Source of the DNA: Phycisphaerae bacterium
GTDB lineage: Bacteria > Planctomycetota > Phycisphaerae > Sedimentisphaerales > Anaerobacaceae
Length of the DNA: 64,000 bases
Direction of reading: 5' to 3'
Assembly: GCA_017993835.1 (NCBI GenBank)
Contig: JAGOLX010000020.1
Span: 1 to 64,000 of the forward strand
Positions 31,556 to 46,186 of the stretch are shown here, piece after piece. The position numbers were made by a program, and so were the translations under genes. How positions within the stretch are numbered: position 1 is the stretch's first letter; each line of letters begins with the position of its first letter. The notes beneath the pieces were generated by a model. It saw nothing but the letters and a program-made list of their open reading frames with translations. It searched no databases and was not told the origin of the DNA.

Positions 31556-31810
31556 ATGATTCAGTCGGTACATACGTTGGCGTTTCTCAGTATGCCGGGC
31601 CACACCGAATGGCTGGTGATCCTGGTCATCGCGCTGCTGATTTTCGGCAAGCGCCTGCCCGAGCTGGCCCGCAGCGTGGGCAAGAGCCTGACGGAATTCA
31701 AGAAGGGCATCAACGAGGCCAAGGAATCGACGGACGAACTCGTGGACGACGTGAAGAAGGCCAGTGATGATGCCGCGTCCTCCGGCACGAAGGATTCGAG
31801 TTCGCGTTAA
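31556..31810 (+). CDS. tatA: Twin-arginine translocase subunit TatA
   Basis: 84 residues. ATG 31556 is chosen because AAGGAG sits six bases upstream; the earlier ATG at 31550 directly abuts that SD. Short periplasmic N-terminus, then one transmembrane helix ([15 protein letters not shown]), the hallmark [16 protein letters not shown] amphipathic helix, and an acidic/hydrophilic tail. It multimerises to form the Tat translocation path. It lies 39 bp ahead of tatC. No tatB is visible, as is common outside Proteobacteria. Clients in this window include the proteins starting at 25103 and possibly 45215. Confidence 0.93.
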
Positions 31811-31849: not shown

Positions 31850-32839
31850 ATGGTAAAGATCAGGAAGAACCTCGATCCCAGCCAATGCACGATGTCCCTT
31901 GGCGACCACCTGGAGGAGCTCCGCGCCCGACTGATCCTGGCGATCTTCGGCCTGGCCATCGGGGCCGTCGTGAGCATGGTCTTCGGCACGCACATTCTGA
32001 GCTTCATTGAGCGGCCGTACGTCAAGGCAATGGGCAAGTGGCTCGATGGGGAGGAAACACCGCGGATCAAGTCCGAGATGACCGCGTTCACAGAGGTGTT
32101 CTTCCGGACTCTGACTGCCAACCTCGATCCCAACGCACCACAACTCGATCCGAGTCGAGTCGAGTTCCTCCGCAAGGTTTCTCTCGATGCCGTCGAGGCC
32201 TGGATCAAGGAGACACGAGCTGCGGCGGGCAACAATGAGCTTCCAACCTTTGCTCGTCTTCAGACGCTGGCCCCGGCCGAGGCGTTCGTCGCCTACATGA
32301 AGGTGTCGTTTATCGCAGGCCTGATCCTCACGTCGCCGTGGGTGTTTTATCAGATCTGGATGTTCGTGGCAGCCGGTCTGTACCCCGCTGAGCGAAAGTA
32401 CATCCACACGGCTATCCCCTTCTCCACGGCCCTGTTCGTCATCGGCGCGCTGTTCTTTCTCTTTGTCATCGCACCCCTGACGCTCGGGTTCTTCCTGAAG
32501 TTCGGCGACATCGTGGGTACGGCAAGCAACTGGACACTCCAGCGGTACATCTCCTTCGTGACGGTCTTGATGCTCGTCTTTGGCGTCGCATTCCAGACGC
32601 CGATAGCGATTTTCATTCTGGTCCGAACGGGTCTGGTCTCGATTGCGACACTGCGTCGCGTCCGGAAATATGTGATTTTGGGCATATTCATCGTTGCGGC
32701 CATAGCCACACCTCCCGATGTCGTTTCGCAGATCTCGCTCGCCATCCCGCTTTATGCCCTCTACGAGCTGGGTATCGTTCTGGCCCTCTTTGCCGAGAAG
32801 AAGGCCAAGGAGAAGATGGCGGAAACCACGTCGGGATGA
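31850..32839 (+). CDS. tatC: Twin-arginine translocase subunit TatC, with enlarged first periplasmic loop
   Basis: 329 residues against about 250 usual. N-terminal HLEELRARL motif, six membrane segments, and the conserved LYPAERKY (the Glu of the signal-peptide site, about 181), ending in IPLYALYELGI. The extra length lies between TM1 and TM2: about residues 57-140 form a hydrophilic, partly helical insert before the standard AEAFVAYMKVSF. The start codon lacks an obvious SD; an alternative Met at 31892 lacks one too. It forms the signal-peptide receptor with TatA. Assignment is certain; the loop is the unusual part. Confidence 0.94.
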   Translation: MVKIRKNLDPSQCTMSLGDHLEELRARLILAIFGLAIGAVVSMVFGTHILSFIERPYVKAMGKWLDGEETPRIKSEMTAFTEVFFRTLTANLDPNAPQLDPSRVEFLRKVSLDAVEAWIKETRAAAGNNELPTFARLQTLAPAEAFVAYMKVSFIAGLILTSPWVFYQIWMFVAAGLYPAERKYIHTAIPFSTALFVIGALFFLFVIAPLTLGFFLKFGDIVGTASNWTLQRYISFVTVLMLVFGVAFQTPIAIFILVRTGLVSIATLRRVRKYVILGIFIVAAIATPPDVVSQISLAIPLYALYELGIVLALFAEKKAKEKMAETTSG

Positions 32840-39617: not shown

Positions 39618-42600
39618 TCATTCCATCCGCTTGTAGTGCTCGGCCTCCCGATTCGACAATCGTCCCTGCTCGATCAGGGTCCGCACCTGCCGAGCGTCCA
39701 GGTCGCGAGGCTGGCCGGCGGCACCGACCGCTGCGGCAGGTTCCTGCAGAATCTGGGGCACGGCGAGGCGCAACTGGCTGACGGAAAGCCCTGCGACGAA
39801 GACGCCAAGAAGGGCGGTCACGAGAACGAGCAGTCCTGCCGACACGCGCGGAGTGCCCGCTGAGACCGGCGTGCCCACGTGACGGCAGCGGTCGCAGTAG
39901 AGGCAGTCGAGATGGTCCGTGGCGGTCAGGCCGAACTCGCAGTGGCCGAATCCTTTCGGCGTGACCCATCGTCGCAGGAGGCGAATGCGGTTGAGCAGGG
40001 ACAGGAACGCGCCCGCAGGACACAGATAGCGGCACCAGAACCGAGTGTAGAACAACGACCCCGCCAAGGCGGCCCCTGCGACCATCGGCAACCACCTGGG
40101 CCAGTACGATGGGGCCGACCGCAGAGCGAAGATCGAGGTCAGCGGGTCGCCGGCGAGAGTCCGGCGGTCTCTCGCGATGAAGAAACCGACGACGAGGATC
40201 GTCAGCACGAGGTACTTGATGAAGCGGGCGACCCGCATTTCATTCCTCTCCGCCGCCGGTCGGAGCCGGCGCGGCAGCACATAGCCCAGCAGTTCCTGGG
40301 CCGCCCCGAAGGGACACAGATAGCCGCAATAGAGGTTCCCGAACAGCAGCACGAGAATCGGCACGCCCACGGCCAGTAGGAATGTGCCCGCGAGACCGGC
40401 CGCAGGGGTGTTCCACGAAAGCAGGGTGACGATCTGCTCCGTCGAGTACTGGGCGTTCAGTACGAGACCGCCCAGAATGAAGGTCAGGACGAGCACCACG
40501 GCTCGGCTGCGGGCGCCGCCTCTGTAGACCGCGACGAAGGCCAGGAGTGTGATCGCGGTCAGGTATAACGCCGTCGCGTCCGTCGCAATTCTCGGTTTGC
40601 CTGCACCTGAGCCGACGTCGGTCTGGAGAACCTCCGCAGCGAATCGCTGCGCCGACGTTCGCAGCGCAGCGAGGACCGCATCGGAACTGACGGTTGCCCC
40701 TGCGACCGCGTTCACACCTGCGAGGGGAGCAGACCCGAATAGTTCCTTTCCCCTGAGAGAGTCGAGCCAGCCGCGGAGCATTTCGACGTAGGACGGGGTC
40801 TCGTTGGATCGTGCGATCAGCAGGTCCGCCAGCTTGCCTGTGACATCGGCGCGGGCGACGATATTGAGCTTGCCGCCGAAGCCGCGGACCTCGGGGGCGA
40901 AATCAGCCGAACTGAGCAGGTAGCCGACCGGCTTCTCGTTCGCGTCGAGGATCGTGACATACTCCGCCTTCCTGCCGCTGTCTGCAAGGCTCACCGATGC
41001 GTGTTGCGTCCGCTGCTGGCCCGCCAATGCGGCGATGGCGTATTCCGGCAGCGCGGGCTCCATCCCGCTGTTCACCCGGGCCAGGATGTTCGATCCCAGG
41101 ACGACGCAGGCGGACAGGCCGAGCAATGTGTAGCCGACTCGTCTGATTCCCGCACCCCCGACGGGTGTGTCTGCGGTCGCTGAGCGCCAAACGCCTGCGA
41201 TTGCGGCGGGCAGGTTGGCCAGCAGCAGGCCGATGAGGACCAACAGCGAGATCCGAGTCCCGAGCACCGGGACCATCAGGAGGCTCGTCGCCAGGCCGCC
41301 GAGGCAGGCGCCGAGGTGGTCAGCGGTTTCGAGTCGACTGCCTGCCTGGCCGGGGTGGAGTCTCCCGGCGGCGAGCTGTGCTGCAGCGATAGGCCAGTAT
41401 CCGCCGCAACACAGACCCGACAGGACGAAGGCCAGCGCGAATACGCCGTGCCCGGATCGGAAGAGAGTCTCTCCATTCCCGGCCCAGGACCCGAACGAAC
41501 TGAACGCAAGGGCCGCCAGCACAATGGCGTGCGTCGGGAGGAGGGTGACGAGCAGAGCGTGTACGGGCCGACGTCCCGGCTGTCGAGCCAGGAGCCGACT
41601 GGCGAACAGACCGCCCGCTGTCAGGCCGGCCATGAACAGCGACGAGATCAGGCCGACGTGCAGGTACAGCGAGCCGAAGTGCGTCTCGTACAGGTACATC
41701 AACAGAAGGACCATCGCGATGGCGACCCAGCCGGTGGAGAAGACCAGGAAGGCGCTGTCGAAGCTTGATGGTCTCATGTCGGACCGTCGGTCCGCCATCG
41801 CGAGCGTCCGCAATGCAATGAAGACGAGGACCGGTACGAGGAAGGGCAGCCATCCTGCCAGCATCAGCAGCCTGACGAATCGCGTCACCGAGGCTCCGGA
41901 TTGTCGGGCCGCCAGCAGCAGGCCATAGAGGTGCGCCAGCGGACGCGAGTCCCGGTTGACCAGGAGTTTCGTCGGCAGATCGGCCTTGTCGTAGGCTCTC
42001 GTCGCCTGGGCGATCTGGTCGGGGAGATAGACGGACAGCAGGCCGGCGGGGGGGAAGATGCGTTGCGAGCCCTCCATCGAGGAGAAGCGGTCCCGAGCGG
42101 TCGCAGGGTCGTCGCTGAGATCCCGGGAGTCGGAGGCGATCAGCCAGGTCTGGTCGCCCGGCGCCAGGACCCTGTTCGAGAAGACCGCCGCCAACGTCGC
42201 GCGCGCGGAGGCCCCCAGGCTCGCCAACTCGGTTCCCAGGATGTTCTCCCCGCCGGCGATGCTCACGGCGACTACGCCGCCCGCGTGGAGCGAGGCCTTC
42301 AGGCGTTCGTAGAACTCGATGGTGTGATAACGGTTGAGTGTGGAGCCGGTCGCGTCGGGGATGTTCACCACGACGAGGTCGAAGCAATCCTTCGCATCAG
42401 CCAGGTAGCTGCGAATCTCGCCTTGGACGGGGTGGAACCGGCTGTCACGCACCGCGAACTCGTTCGGCAGGATCTCCAGCAGGCGGCTGGCGTACTCCGC
42501 GTCCGGATGGGCCCAAGCCAGTCGCTCGATCTGCGGCAGCATGAGGAGCCGATTGCACAGGGCCGGACCCGATCCGATCACCAGGATCTGTCTTGCCTTG

Positions 42601-43472
42601 GGGTTCTGGCAGAGGATGGTTGCTGCGATCCGGCCTGCCTGCTCCTCGTCGGGCAACGTTTCACAGACGCTGCCTTCCCGCATGGCGATCCACTGGCCTG
42701 CGTATTGGCCGTACAGGTATTCGGCCTGAGCGGTGAGGAATGCCCCCTGGAAGGCCTCGATGGGCAATAGCCTGCTCCATTTGGCCTGTTGCACCCGGCG
42801 TGTGGCGATGTTGTCGTATCCCATCAGCAGGACTGCTGACGCACAGCCCGCTACTGCCAGCGAAACAATCATCGCGACCCAGCGGCTCCCGCGGAGCGAG
42901 AACAGGCACACGATGACGACAGGCGCCGCCAGGACGAGAGCCATCAGAAGCGACACTCTCATCATGGACACGTGGCATGCGAGCAGGGCGGTGACCGCCA
43001 GACCTCCTGTGAAGCTGCCCAAGGCTTCGAGGACATAAACTCGCGAGACGGGCAGTGCATTTGTCTGCTCGACCCATCGGCAGGCGACGGGAAAGAACAC
43101 CCCGGTGACCAGGCTCACCGGTGCATTGACCGCCATCGACCACAGGACCATCGTCTGGATGGAGACCATCGCGTAAGGCGCGATGCCCGCCAGCTCGCGA
43201 ATCTGCACGGTCAACAGGAATTGGGCTGCAAACGCCGGGATGTACAGCAGGAACAGCAGCTCGATATGTCGCAGCAGGACCTCGGCAAAACGAGCCCACC
43301 GTCGGACCAGGGCCGCGCCGAGGCCCACCCAGAGGAACCACGAGCCGAAGAAGACGCCGACGCTGATGTCGTTGCCCTCGAACGAGGTGATGAACTCGCG
43401 GAACAGCAGGGTCTGGGCCGCGATCGCGACCAGGCCGTAGGCGACAATCATCATGCCACGGGCAAGTCTCAT
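39618..43472 (-). CDS. Giant membrane redox fusion: spermidine-synthase-like + FMN-binding + NosR/NapH-like Fe-S
   Basis: 1,284 residues. About 1-225 is a multi-helix membrane region followed by a Rossmann fold resembling spermidine synthase (QILVIGSGPALCNRLL about 295-310, DLVVVNIPDATG), a pairing seen in 'fused MFS/spermidine synthase' proteins. About 530-800 is a second multi-helix block. About 835-945 is an extracytoplasmic FMN_bind domain with the flavinylation motif NAVAGATVSS (921-930; predicted FMN-Thr927). About 960-1235 is a NosR/NapH-like membrane region with two CX3CP motifs (Cys1049/1053 and Cys1147/1151) and Cys1178/1190/1193/1196 that could hold further clusters. It would pass electrons across the membrane between a cytosolic donor and a covalently bound FMN. 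The start overlaps the upstream Memo-AMMECR1 stop by four bases (ATGA). No ApbE flavin transferase is encoded in the window. Confidence 0.85.
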   Translation of the reverse strand: MRLARGMMIVAYGLVAIAAQTLLFREFITSFEGNDISVGVFFGSWFLWVGLGAALVRRWARFAEVLLRHIELLFLLYIPAFAAQFLLTVQIRELAGIAPYAMVSIQTMVLWSMAVNAPVSLVTGVFFPVACRWVEQTNALPVSRVYVLEALGSFTGGLAVTALLACHVSMMRVSLLMALVLAAPVVIVCLFSLRGSRWVAMIVSLAVAGCASAVLLMGYDNIATRRVQQAKWSRLLPIEAFQGAFLTAQAEYLYGQYAGQWIAMREGSVCETLPDEEQAGRIAATILCQNPKARQILVIGSGPALCNRLLMLPQIERLAWAHPDAEYASRLLEILPNEFAVRDSRFHPVQGEIRSYLADAKDCFDLVVVNIPDATGSTLNRYHTIEFYERLKASLHAGGVVAVSIAGGENILGTELASLGASARATLAAVFSNRVLAPGDQTWLIASDSRDLSDDPATARDRFSSMEGSQRIFPPAGLLSVYLPDQIAQATRAYDKADLPTKLLVNRDSRPLAHLYGLLLAARQSGASVTRFVRLLMLAGWLPFLVPVLVFIALRTLAMADRRSDMRPSSFDSAFLVFSTGWVAIAMVLLLMYLYETHFGSLYLHVGLISSLFMAGLTAGGLFASRLLARQPGRRPVHALLVTLLPTHAIVLAALAFSSFGSWAGNGETLFRSGHGVFALAFVLSGLCCGGYWPIAAAQLAAGRLHPGQAGSRLETADHLGACLGGLATSLLMVPVLGTRISLLVLIGLLLANLPAAIAGVWRSATADTPVGGAGIRRVGYTLLGLSACVVLGSNILARVNSGMEPALPEYAIAALAGQQRTQHASVSLADSGRKAEYVTILDANEKPVGYLLSSADFAPEVRGFGGKLNIVARADVTGKLADLLIARSNETPSYVEMLRGWLDSLRGKELFGSAPLAGVNAVAGATVSSDAVLAALRTSAQRFAAEVLQTDVGSGAGKPRIATDATALYLTAITLLAFVAVYRGGARSRAVVLVLTFILGGLVLNAQYSTEQIVTLLSWNTPAAGLAGTFLLAVGVPILVLLFGNLYCGYLCPFGAAQELLGYVLPRRLRPAAERNEMRVARFIKYLVLTILVVGFFIARDRRTLAGDPLTSIFALRSAPSYWPRWLPMVAGAALAGSLFYTRFWCRYLCPAGAFLSLLNRIRLLRRWVTPKGFGHCEFGLTATDHLDCLYCDRCRHVGTPVSAGTPRVSAGLLVLVTALLGVFVAGLSVSQLRLAVPQILQEPAAAVGAAGQPRDLDARQVRTLIEQGRLSNREAEHYKRME

Positions 43473-45031
43473 GGCTCCTCACCGAACACGTCCGCCTGGA
43501 AGACCTGGAACGTCGCGCCCTGTTTCCAGGCGTCCGCGGGCAGGCCGGCCTTCGTGGACAAGTGCTGGAGCGTCGTCGCCAGGTCCCAGCCTTGTTCCGT
43601 CGCCACTTGCGGAAGGAAGACCGCGGAACGCCCGTTCTTCTTCAGAACCATGCCGTCGATGCCGATGCGGATGTCCTGGGCCGACGCAACCGACGTTGGC
43701 GGGGTGAGCGCGGAGATCTCGATCTTGATCTGGTCGCACTCGTCGCTCCTGAGTTGCTCGAATCGCCGATCCCCGAAGGCGGCGTAGATCGCATTGCCGA
43801 TCACCGCTTTGTACAGGGGGCGCTGGGGGAAGATGTCCCCGATGCAGCCGCGCAACTGCCCGTTCTTCTTGAGCGTGACAAACGCCCCCCTGGGCGGTTT
43901 CATTGACTCCGTCGGCGTGAAGTTCAGATCCGACAGCTCGGGGACCTTCCGGTTGTCCATCGCGTATCGAATGGTCCGGCGGGCCAGGTCCAGGAGCAGC
44001 TTCTTGTCCTCCGCGGTCAGCGGGGGTTGCTGAGCCTGCGTCGGCGGCGCAGGGGCGACGGTCCAGACACCGTGAAAGGCGACCGCCAGGTAACTGACGA
44101 AGTTCGTGTAGTCGCCCAATGCCTCGCCGGAGGTTGTGTACCGAAGCAACTCGACCTTCGTGTCCTTACCCAGGGTTTCCAGCAGCACGGCGATGGGCAC
44201 GCAGCCGCAGATTGTGGCATGAGCCTCGTCCCGGTAGTCCAGCAGGCCCTTGGCGTCGAGCTTGCTGATGAAATCGAACGCGCCCATGTCGAGCTTCTTG
44301 ATGTTCTGCGGGATGTTGTCCTTGAAGGGCACATACTGATACTGCGGCCCATAGTGCGTGAAATCGGAGCTGGCGACGACGAGCGTGTCGGCGTCGATCA
44401 GGCCCGCGAGGATCTTGCCTGCCTCCGCGACCGCTTCATGCGAGCACTGTCCCGCGATGATGGGGACGAGCTGGAAGTCGGTCAGCTTGTACTGGAGCAG
44501 GGGGATCTCGATCTCGACGCTGTGCTCTTGCTGGTGGGCCGCCGGGACGCTCTGGAAGAGCGGATACTCCAGCAGCTTGCCGATGAACGCGACGTCCAGG
44601 GGGATCTGCCCCAGGGGCGTCTCGTAGTGTGTCGCACGCGGCACGCTGAGCATGTCCTCCATCGGCAGGCGATGCGTCGGCCCGATCACCACGACCCGTT
44701 TGTAGTTCCGGCCCAGCGACTTGATTCCGCAGGCGGCGGTTGGGCCGGAGTAGGCATAGCCGGCGTGGGGGAGCACCAGCGCGATGACGTCTTGCTTCGG
44801 TTCGACCTGGGCCTTCGCCAGATAGTCCGCGATCTGTTTGCGGAGCTCGTTTGCGTCGCTGCTGTACCAACTCCCGGCGATGGAAGACTTCAGCACGACC
44901 TTTGTGTCCGCAGCCGCCAAGGGCGCTATGGGAGATCTGTTCACGGCGTGTCGGCCGATCACTGCCGCTGCGACGATCAGACAACATGCCAGCAGGATCG
45001 GACCGCCCGTCTTTCTCAATCTCGCGTTCAT
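43469..45031 (-). CDS. AmmeMemoRadiSam proteins B and A fused: membrane-anchored Memo-AMMECR1
   Basis: 520 residues. An N-terminal membrane anchor or uncleaved signal (about 10-27, ILLACCLIVAAAVIG) means the rest lies outside the cytosol. Residues about 45-330 are Memo-like: LPHAGYAYSG, GPTHRLPM, QEHSVEIEIPLLQ, ASSDFTHYG and HATICGC, retaining the His/His/Cys positions of the Memo metal/dioxygenase-like site. Residues about 345-515 are AMMECR1: PRGAFVTLKKNGQLRGCIG with the family LRGCIG hallmark. These two families and a radical SAM enzyme recur together as the AmmeMemoRadiSam system of unknown function. The upstream 60-residue gene ends 1 bp before this ATG, and the downstream redox giant overlaps it. 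It might process or load a cofactor on an exported partner; that is inference. Confidence 0.9.
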   Translation of the reverse strand: MNARLRKTGGPILLACCLIVAAAVIGRHAVNRSPIAPLAAADTKVVLKSSIAGSWYSSDANELRKQIADYLAKAQVEPKQDVIALVLPHAGYAYSGPTAACGIKSLGRNYKRVVVIGPTHRLPMEDMLSVPRATHYETPLGQIPLDVAFIGKLLEYPLFQSVPAAHQQEHSVEIEIPLLQYKLTDFQLVPIIAGQCSHEAVAEAGKILAGLIDADTLVVASSDFTHYGPQYQYVPFKDNIPQNIKKLDMGAFDFISKLDAKGLLDYRDEAHATICGCVPIAVLLETLGKDTKVELLRYTTSGEALGDYTNFVSYLAVAFHGVWTVAPAPPTQAQQPPLTAEDKKLLLDLARRTIRYAMDNRKVPELSDLNFTPTESMKPPRGAFVTLKKNGQLRGCIGDIFPQRPLYKAVIGNAIYAAFGDRRFEQLRSDECDQIKIEISALTPPTSVASAQDIRIGIDGMVLKKNGRSAVFLPQVATEQGWDLATTLQHLSTKAGLPADAWKQGATFQVFQADVFGEEP

Positions 45032-45032
45032 C

Positions 45033-45215
45033 TTAACCGCTCCATTTGGACTGCATTCGGATGTCGCCCATGGGCACGATGACGCCGGGGTAGTTCTTTG
45101 ACCGACCCGCCCGAACGATCCGGCGGGGCAGGACCCTGCGGCTCATCCAACCAACCCATCCGCCGACTACCGAGACTGCAATGCTGATGTGATAGAGGAA
45201 CTTTCGTCGTGTCAT
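45033..45215 (-). CDS. 60-residue Tat-signal-like small protein between the radical SAM and Memo-AMMECR1 genes
   Basis: ATG 45215 overlaps the radical SAM TGA (ATGA, 45212-45215); an in-frame ATG two codons earlier (45221) is possible. The N-terminus MTRRKFLYHI followed by a hydrophobic stretch SIAVSVVGGWVGW looks like a twin-arginine signal or signal anchor. A basic middle (SRRVLPRRIVRAGRSK) leads to a short tail with YPGV and a final SKWSG. It has no Cys. Its size and place inside a translationally coupled operon suggest a membrane or exported partner, or a substrate peptide of the radical SAM enzyme. Only operon structure supports it; I do not recognise a named family. Confidence 0.75.
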   Translation of the reverse strand: MTRRKFLYHISIAVSVVGGWVGWMSRRVLPRRIVRAGRSKNYPGVIVPMGDIRMQSKWSG

Positions 45216-46186
45216 TTCCATACTCCGCTGATTTCCCTTCCACAGTCGGGACAATGCCCGTCCTTCAATCGGTTCTGCAGCACGGTGAAGCCGACTCGCT
45301 GGATCAGGAGCTTCTTGCACCCTGGGCAATAGGTGTTCTCGCCCTTTTCACTCTGGCGATTGCCGATGTAGACGTACTCCATACCCTCGCTCATCGCGAT
45401 GTCCCGTGCGGATTCGAGGCTCTGCAACGAGGTCGGCGGCAGGTGACGCATCTGGTAGGTCGGATAGAAGCCGCTGAAGTGCAGGGGGGTCTCCCTGCCC
45501 ACGTTGTCCCGGACCCACTGAGACAGGGATCGCAGGTCCTCGGGCTTGTCGTTCAGCGTCGGGATGACCAGATTGATCACCTCGACGTGTATGCCCATCG
45601 ACTTGGCGACGACGATGGCGTTCTGGACCGGCTTGAGCGTTGCGGAACACACATCCCGATAGAACCCCTCGGACATCGACTTCAGATCGATCCTGACCGC
45701 GTCGATGTGCCGGAGCAGCTCTCGCCAGGGCCCCTCGTTCACATACCCGGCGGTCACGAGCACGTTTCGCAGCCCCGCCTCCTTCGCGAGTTTGGCGGTG
45801 TCGTACGTGTACTCATAGTAGACAATGGGCTCGGTGTACGTGTAGGCGATGGAGGGGCGGTTGTACTGTCGGGTCAGGGCCACCACCTTCTCGGGCGGGC
45901 ACGCATACGCCCGGCTCTCCTCCGGGTTGGCCTGCGAGATCTCCCAGTTCTGGCAGTTCTTGCAGTGGAGGTTGCAGCCGACGGTGGCCAGCGAGAGGAT
46001 CTTCGTGCCCGGCAGGAAGTGAAAGACCGGCTTCTTCTCGACCGGGTCGTCCGCGTTCAGCGAGCACGGGAAACCGTACACGACGCTGCGGAGCGTGCCA
46101 TCGAGATTGACGCGGACCCGGCACTCGCCGCTCTGGCCCGGCCCGATGATGCACCGCTTCGGACATAGCTCGCATTGGACCTTCAC
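45212..46186 (-). CDS. AmmeMemoRadiSam system radical SAM enzyme (PflA-like)
   Basis: 324 residues from GTG 46186. Upstream in-frame codons reach far further (to 47650), but a TATAAT promoter box overlaps the only nearby ATG at 46246, so translation must start below it; GTG 46186 is the best candidate. N-terminal CELCPKRC, then the SAM cluster motif CNLHCKNCQNWEISQ (CX3CX2C), TYTEPIVYYEYTYDTAKLAKEAG, RIDLKSMSEGFYRDVC, and two C-terminal CxxC pairs (CPGCKKL, CPDCG) that probably hold another cluster or zinc. Related to pyruvate-formate-lyase activases, but the partner is not PFL; this branch travels with Memo and AMMECR1. First gene of the four-gene operon. Confidence 0.9.
   Translation of the reverse strand: MKVQCELCPKRCIIGPGQSGECRVRVNLDGTLRSVVYGFPCSLNADDPVEKKPVFHFLPGTKILSLATVGCNLHCKNCQNWEISQANPEESRAYACPPEKVVALTRQYNRPSIAYTYTEPIVYYEYTYDTAKLAKEAGLRNVLVTAGYVNEGPWRELLRHIDAVRIDLKSMSEGFYRDVCSATLKPVQNAIVVAKSMGIHVEVINLVIPTLNDKPEDLRSLSQWVRDNVGRETPLHFSGFYPTYQMRHLPPTSLQSLESARDIAMSEGMEYVYIGNRQSEKGENTYCPGCKKLLIQRVGFTVLQNRLKDGHCPDCGREISGVWK

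Follow-up and report, generated by a model that had tools for sequence, protein, structure and literature searches.

The AmmeMemoRadiSam system brings together three protein families, AMMECR1 (TIGR04335), Memo (TIGR04336) and a radical S-adenosylmethionine (SAM) enzyme (TIGR04337). Memo has a human homologue, and to our knowledge no reaction has been described for either Memo or AMMECR1. Radical SAM enzymes require SAM together with low-potential electrons, both of which are regarded as cytoplasmic. Here we describe a four-gene operon of a Phycisphaerae bacterium (assembly GCA_017993835.1), located within the first 64,000 nucleotides of contig JAGOLX010000020.1 (hereafter the window), which encodes all three components. 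We read this operon, with a probability of about 0.6, as an extracytoplasmic AmmeMemoRadiSam machine, whose radical SAM enzyme would be tethered to a giant membrane protein supplying electrons and probably SAM.

Several described systems resemble parts of the locus. In contrast to the control homologues of the AmmeMemoRadiSam families, which are signal-less and lack any SpeE/MFS partner, the Memo and AMMECR1 of the window are fused and apparently exported, the radical SAM enzyme lacks its N-terminal piece, which is split off, and a twin-arginine translocation (Tat) partner and the giant are added. A signal-less iron–sulfur (Fe–S) enzyme encoded beside a twin-arginine partner is also a feature of hitchhiker export, as in Ni–Fe hydrogenases and formate dehydrogenases (PMC10924467), but the partner here is a peptide of 50–80 amino acids, and co-export is presumed. 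The flavin mononucleotide (FMN) and Fe–S domains of the giant recall the ApbE-flavinylated extracytosolic electron-transfer proteins NosR, RnfG and NqrC (surveyed in PMC8238504 and PMC11334425), with which it shares an FMN_bind GAT motif, a NosR/NapH-type CxxxCP domain and, at some loci, a nearby ApbE gene. In the giant, however, the redox part is fused behind a transporter and tied to the radical SAM enzyme, Memo and AMMECR1, and the main texts of both surveys contain no Memo, AMMECR1 or radical SAM. The remainder of the giant combines the fold and profile of spermidine synthase (SpeE; membrane form PRK03612) with a membrane part that superposes on SV2A and URAT1, transporters of the major facilitator superfamily (MFS) with a large outer domain likewise placed after the seventh transmembrane helix. 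Unlike in those transporters, the inserted domain is SpeE-like and sequence identity is only 11–14%; unlike SpeE, it falls below the family cut-offs, has mostly lost the catalytic Asp and is predicted to lie outside the membrane.

Operon Layout and Components

The four genes all lie on the minus strand and follow one another with a 4-bp overlap, a 1-bp gap and a 4-bp overlap:

45212..46186, minus strand: radical SAM enzyme of the AmmeMemoRadiSam family, 324 amino acids (TIGR04337, CxxxCxxC, split-class N-terminus)
45033..45215, minus strand: 60-residue twin-arginine protein with a conserved C-terminal tail, YPG..PL....W[AS]G (homologues between radical SAM and Memo–AMMECR1 genes; TIGR01409 matches)
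43469..45031, minus strand: Memo–AMMECR1 fusion, 520 amino acids (Pfam/NCBIfam, MEMO1 ligand alignment, lipobox or transmembrane segment in homologues)
39618..43472, minus strand: redox-transporter giant, 1,284 amino acids (Pfam/NCBIfam domains)

This four-gene operon is real: its coordinates, overlaps and families agree with those given in an earlier reading made from the letters of the DNA (the sequence-only reading). All three AmmeMemoRadiSam components are encoded together and score above curated cut-offs. The radical SAM enzyme reaches 352.7 bits against a TIGR04337 cut-off of 220, carries its cluster motif as CNLHCKNC and has no signal peptide of its own. Its start codon is GTG, backed by homologues beginning M-K-V/I-Q-C; an upstream ATG was rejected, as the extra sequence resembles no homologue. 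The first junction is an ATGA overlap. In the fusion protein, Memo spans residues 50–316 (PF01875 above cut-off; TIGR04336 240.8 against 26 bits) and AMMECR1 residues 348–516 (PF01871 above cut-off; TIGR04335 172.4 against 99). The His-His-Cys ligands of the Memo iron site (H49/H81/C244 in MEMO1) align with H89/H120/C275 of the window and are invariant in the family. Memo–AMMECR1 proteins of giant loci bear a lipobox or a membrane anchor; judged by these N-termini, the protein is exported throughout the giant-locus family and likely acts outside the membrane. In genomes, AMMECR1 is reported to be among the best markers of an anaerobic lifestyle (PMC13386939), and since its carriers are mainly anaerobic, an O2-dependent dioxygenation by Memo is unlikely.

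The comparisons below draw on a phylum survey (a sample of 197 genomes) and on a wider survey of the 80 nearest Memo–AMMECR1 loci among 84,980 species genomes.

Export Marks on the Radical SAM Enzymes

The evidence for export comes largely from sister loci, many of which encode a stand-alone version of the SpeE/MFS part of the giant. Beside a SpeE/MFS gene, every radical SAM gene whose start is intact (46 of 46) bears an export mark, namely a Tat or Sec signal of their own (25) or a split N-terminus (21), whereas such marks are absent from all 45 cytosolic-type controls (30 top scorers of the family, nine others and six drawn from the other survey). The association between SpeE/MFS adjacency and the export mark gives a Fisher value of about 1e-16, with 16 non-adjacent Tat-bearing enzymes counted against it and relatedness uncorrected. 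All 16 genomes checked that hold such a non-adjacent enzyme have a SpeE/MFS gene elsewhere, one of them as partial matches only. Among genomes whose Memo is exported but unlinked to a giant, 11 of 17 contain SpeE/MFS, compared with 2 of 21 where Memo is not exported (p 5e-4, again uncorrected for relatedness; the lipoboxes of L108 and L123 were assigned by eye). On a tree of 106 radical SAM enzymes, the three states require five changes.

The signals themselves are of the twin-arginine type beside stand-alone SpeE/MFS proteins, for example MDRRRFLTVAGNAFAALSPAAALLLAAGG in L070; the assignments of L204 and L201 were made by eye. In L142, L145 and L159, the stretch linking the Tat signal to the radical SAM core carries a CxxCH haem-c-type motif, and haem c is attached solely outside the cytoplasm. 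The CxxxCxxC cluster motif is invariant in all exported enzymes. The genome of the window additionally holds a scattered, signal-less set, with a radical SAM enzyme on C9 (L206), Memo on C34 (L064) and AMMECR1 on C83 (L065), which we count in favor of the export reading. Taken from these signals, export of the radical SAM enzyme and Memo–AMMECR1 as a pair has good odds.

Two side observations concern the same enzymes. At about 3300-3650 of L201 (minus strand), the N-terminal CxxC...C motif of a Tat-type enzyme has an in-frame TGA precisely where its third Cys would stand (CHVCPFD*FLE), which may represent selenocysteine or a sequencing error. In L188 and L189, the radical SAM enzyme, AMMECR1 and Memo are naturally fused in one signal-less frame of 1,078 codons.

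The Small Tat Protein and the Proposed Docking Tail

Every complete giant locus encodes, between the radical SAM enzyme and Memo–AMMECR1, a twin-arginine protein of 50–80 amino acids whose tail usually ends in W[AS]G or LAG. That of the window begins MTRRKFLYH, followed by a hydrophobic stretch, and the twin-arginine start is conserved in 21 homologues; in the alignment of 21 sequences, (near-)invariance is limited to the twin Arg and the final Gly. A chance open reading frame was rejected, since all complete giant loci have a homologue there. Because the window radical SAM enzyme is signal-less while its sisters carry their own signals, the simplest reading by analogy is that the 60-residue protein would act as a Tat escort in a hitchhiker export. 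Tat components are encoded in the same window, about 7 kb from the operon:

31592-31810, plus strand: TatA
31850-32839, plus strand: TatC, the only one detected in the genome

The split N-terminus offers a second line of evidence. Signal-less radical SAM enzymes of giant loci start at the first Cys motif, without the N-terminal EAxxYxxL element that is typical of the family, although outside its formal definition. TIGR04337 is accordingly matched only from position 10–12 in most split members, and from position 1–6 in most others. In the window, the element absent from the radical SAM enzyme is found at the end of the giant:

39621..39701, minus strand: C-terminal tail of the giant, GQPRDLD...LSNREAEHYKRME, containing the EAxxY element; proposed to serve as an outer-face docking strand (sequence comparison)

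Each of the 21 split-class members has a small Tat or membrane peptide as its neighbor; for the majority, EAxFYkkL lies on the tail of the giant or on a short membrane anchor. EAxxYxxL ends the giant in about ten loci (GQPRDLDARQVRTLIEQGRLSNREAEHYKRME), while in nine loci whose giant ends at the Fe–S domain it is borne by a small downstream protein with one transmembrane segment. In L143, which represents a second origin on the tree, a transmembrane peptide ending in LNPKEAKYYRVIEE is encoded just upstream of the radical SAM gene. In an AlphaFold2 model of the Tat-type enzyme of L136, the element is built into the fold, with a mean predicted local distance difference test score (pLDDT) of 91 for residues 41–50 and 98 for residues 51–60, against 56–64 for signal and linker. 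The evidence is thus circumstantial but specific that the radical SAM enzyme docks on a membrane protein, which would supply the missing piece in trans.

Architecture of the Giant

The giant joins a transporter half to a redox half:

41073..43472, minus strand: residues 1–800, MFS-fold transporter (7 + 7–8 transmembrane helices) with inserted SpeE-like domain (AlphaFold2 model, structure comparison)
41850..42803, minus strand: residues 224–541, SpeE-like (spermidine-synthase-fold) domain, predicted on the outer face (Foldseek, profile, positive-inside rule, residue counts)
40656..40883, minus strand: FMN_bind domain with GAT flavinylation motif, Thr927 (PF04205, motif survey)
39837..40445, minus strand: NosR/NapH-type membrane Fe–S domain with two CxxxCP motifs (two PF12801 matches, NosR/NapH models, motif survey)

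According to the structural model, residues 1–800 are a spermidine-synthase-like domain within an MFS-type transporter. For residues 2–782, the pLDDT is 91.7 and the predicted template modeling score (pTM) 0.92. The membrane helices superpose on MFS transporters along their full extent (SV2A, Z 25.2, 347 residues at 3.7 A; URAT1, Z 23.4; NorC, Z 21.4). The inserted domain, preceded by seven transmembrane helices, matches spermidine synthase 1uir with a Foldseek E of 8e-10 and a structural Z of 25.8, and the profile comparison gives E 2e-36, even though the window giant lies below the SpeE family cut-offs (PF01564 18.6 vs 22.9; PRK03612 48.8 vs 472). The aminopropyltransferase catalytic Asp (D-x-x-D-P motif) is replaced in 27 of 28 homologues, by Asn in the window giant, and is present in the remaining one. 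Owing to this loss, the domain appears catalytically degenerate, and a working aminopropyltransferase is unlikely. The first Gly of the SAM loop is kept in 28/28, and the position following strand 2 remains acidic in 25/28. By the positive-inside rule across 28 homologues, the SpeE-like domain is predicted on the outer face; in the window giant, the same side is predicted for the FMN domain and for the C-terminal tail, where one helix flanking the Fe–S domain had to be added by eye to place the tail.

In the redox half, FMN_bind scores 23.6 bits against a cut-off of 22, and Thr927 of the GAT motif is invariant in the homologue alignment. Fer4_5 (PF12801) is matched twice, and the NosR/NapH models match too, but the NosR equivalog threshold is missed (43.6 vs 1000 bits). 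An ApbE gene adjoins L091, L097, L137 and L142, and the genome of the window has two. With these features, delivery of electrons to the outer side by the giant is likely.

Linkage across Genomes

Among the phylum genomes, full-length giants occur at seven places: five directly beside Memo–AMMECR1 (window, G017, G175, G129 and G047, the last divided between two contigs), one where a contig ends (G114) and one as a second giant in the genome of the window. Five of the six testable full-length giants hence adjoin Memo–AMMECR1. G010 shows a split version, with an FMN/Fe–S protein, a radical SAM enzyme and a SpeE/MFS protein beside Memo–AMMECR1; the locus L071 has a split version. In the wider survey, the giant is present in ~20 of the 80 loci. 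Some 20 loci, spread over six or more phyla, repeat the order radical SAM enzyme, small Tat protein, Memo–AMMECR1 and giant, the full giants belonging to Planctomycetota, Verrucomicrobiota, Hydrogenedentota, Bdellovibrionota, Myxococcota and Pseudomonadota; in L106 and L141 the order is altered, with the giant first. A second large set of loci has the SpeE/MFS protein beside the radical SAM enzyme without FMN/Fe–S, which is why the SpeE/MFS protein is the core partner of the exported system and the FMN/Fe–S half a common addition. Apart from ApbE in a few cases, no further conserved metabolic neighbor hinting at the substrate was found in the giant loci.

The sequence-only reading had proposed a coupling of Memo–AMMECR1 and the radical SAM enzyme to a flavin/Fe–S giant, to be abandoned if their homologues almost never occurred together in related genomes; the neighborhood search found them together repeatedly, which bears the proposal out. 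It had described the giant as an FMN/Fe–S membrane fusion, which as a full description is ruled out by the MFS/SpeE module that it overlooked, which is 60% of the protein and the broader partner. Likewise, it did not recognize the 60-residue Tat protein and the C-terminal tail of the giant as conserved working parts.

Other observations on these loci stand by themselves. The second giant of the same genome (L063 8798-12628, minus strand; G000 C18:66995-70606) is 35% identical, lies beside a pheS-like gene and has neither an EAxxY tail nor a Memo nearby. L085 (3419-6046, plus strand) encodes a SpeE/MFS protein with a docking tail and without FMN/Fe–S domains. DUF362 proteins, mostly Tat-tagged, lie between Memo–AMMECR1 and a Tat-type radical SAM enzyme in L117, L120, L121, L124, L125, L127, L135, L139 and L152, and are possibly an alternative electron carrier in Tat-class loci.

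Proposed Mechanism and Alternatives

The operon, the domain identities, the conserved linkage, the Tat signals, the split N-terminus and the MFS and SpeE folds rest on sequence or model; export, docking, electron flow and SAM transport are the steps that we infer. The radical SAM enzyme would acquire its Fe–S cluster in the cytoplasm and leave folded via Tat, the signal-less enzyme of the window probably being co-exported with the 60-residue protein. Once outside, it would dock on the C-terminal tail of the giant, its own missing N-terminal element, close to the membrane-anchored Memo–AMMECR1. Electrons would cross the membrane through the NosR/NapH-like Fe–S domain and the covalently flavinylated FMN domain, allowing reductive cleavage of SAM, and the MFS transporter with its outer, degenerate SpeE-like domain would probably bring SAM or clear spent SAM products. 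Transport of SAM or its products by the MFS–SpeE module falls somewhat short of even odds when taken as a claim by itself, and we are similarly tentative in extending the scheme to an entire class of radical SAM enzymes at work outside the cytoplasm, with Tat or peptide-escort export, docking on the giant, SAM via MFS/SpeE and electrons via Fe–S/FMN.

A number of points weigh against this extracytoplasmic reading. The loci share descent, so that the Fisher values overstate independence. Pfam TAT_signal scores only 9 of 36 radical SAM enzymes, and TIGR01409 only 6 of the 21 small Tat proteins, that of the window reaching 15.1 bits against a cut-off of 16.7. The localization of the radical SAM enzymes is read from their signals, and export of the window enzyme leans on its small Tat partner and on the analogy with sister loci. 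The docking motif is not seen in every SpeE-adjacent split locus, since a contig end truncates several of them. Of the glycine loop in the SpeE-like domain, only part is kept (second Gly in 19/28), and the pattern search for the FMN GAT motif finds none in L137 and a doubtful one in L151. The redox potentials of FMN_bind domains could be too high to drive the cleavage of SAM, and we know of no extracytoplasmic SAM pool.

Other explanations have to be considered against the same evidence. The MFS–SpeE module might be a polyamine or nucleoside exporter or synthase unrelated to SAM, leaving the FMN/Fe–S half alone to serve the AmmeMemoRadiSam proteins. While the SpeE fold is indeed near aminopropyltransferases and the MFS fold suits drug or metabolite export, it is SpeE/MFS and not the FMN/Fe–S half that tracks the exported radical SAM enzyme among genomes; together with the lost catalytic Asp and the docking tail on the SpeE/MFS protein of L085, this makes such a role unlikely. 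Quite unlikely, in our judgment, is a radical SAM enzyme that stays cytoplasmic and modifies the 60-residue peptide, as a precursor resembling that of a peptide natural product or cofactor, before Tat exports it to Memo–AMMECR1 and the giant. The missing signal of the window enzyme, the 4-bp overlap of the two genes and the conserved W[AS]G end would suit a substrate peptide, but sister enzymes bear Tat signals themselves, for which the peptide would be unnecessary, and some have CxxCH motifs; moreover, the EAxxY element missing from the enzyme is carried by an anchor whose predicted orientation is outward, and the near-invariant positions of the peptide are confined to the twin Arg and the final Gly.

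The sequence-only reading had suggested that a radical SAM product, or a metal or cofactor, is handled outside the membrane with electrons from flavin and Fe–S centres; we take this to mean a cytosolic product, metal or cofactor passed to an outer Memo–AMMECR1 that the giant feeds with electrons. Its placement of Memo–AMMECR1 outside is likely right, the flavin/Fe–S giant is real and the metal ligands of Memo are kept, yet the radical SAM enzyme most likely leaves the cytoplasm too, with no cytosolic product handed out, and the model leaves the Tat signals, the split N-terminus and the SpeE/MFS module unexplained; as a whole we rate it quite unlikely as well. A neighborhood coincidence, or shared regulation without physical coupling, is barely credible: the second giant on C18, far from Memo, demonstrates that a giant can stand unlinked, but the adjacency recurs across phyla and in several gene orders, in the split version of L071 and with complementary protein pieces, and chance linkage is contradicted by the locus survey.

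Significance

The apparently exported, giant-coupled AmmeMemoRadiSam family is widespread and apparently not described before. Exported radical SAM enzymes were not found in the literature searched, in which five papers name AmmeMemoRadiSam, a single time in each. Part of the Memo neighborhood may have been noticed earlier by Burroughs et al. 2019, a work that PMC7159879 cites for Memo-Ammecr1 systems. Should export be borne out, radical SAM enzymes that work outside the cytoplasm would be known here for the first time, judging from the literature searched. Such enzymes would overturn the assumption that this chemistry is confined to the cytoplasm and would imply a supply of SAM across the membrane. 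Testable handles on the partners of Memo and AMMECR1, and on the place of their reaction, come from the split N-terminus, the putative Tat escort and the giant dedicated to the system.

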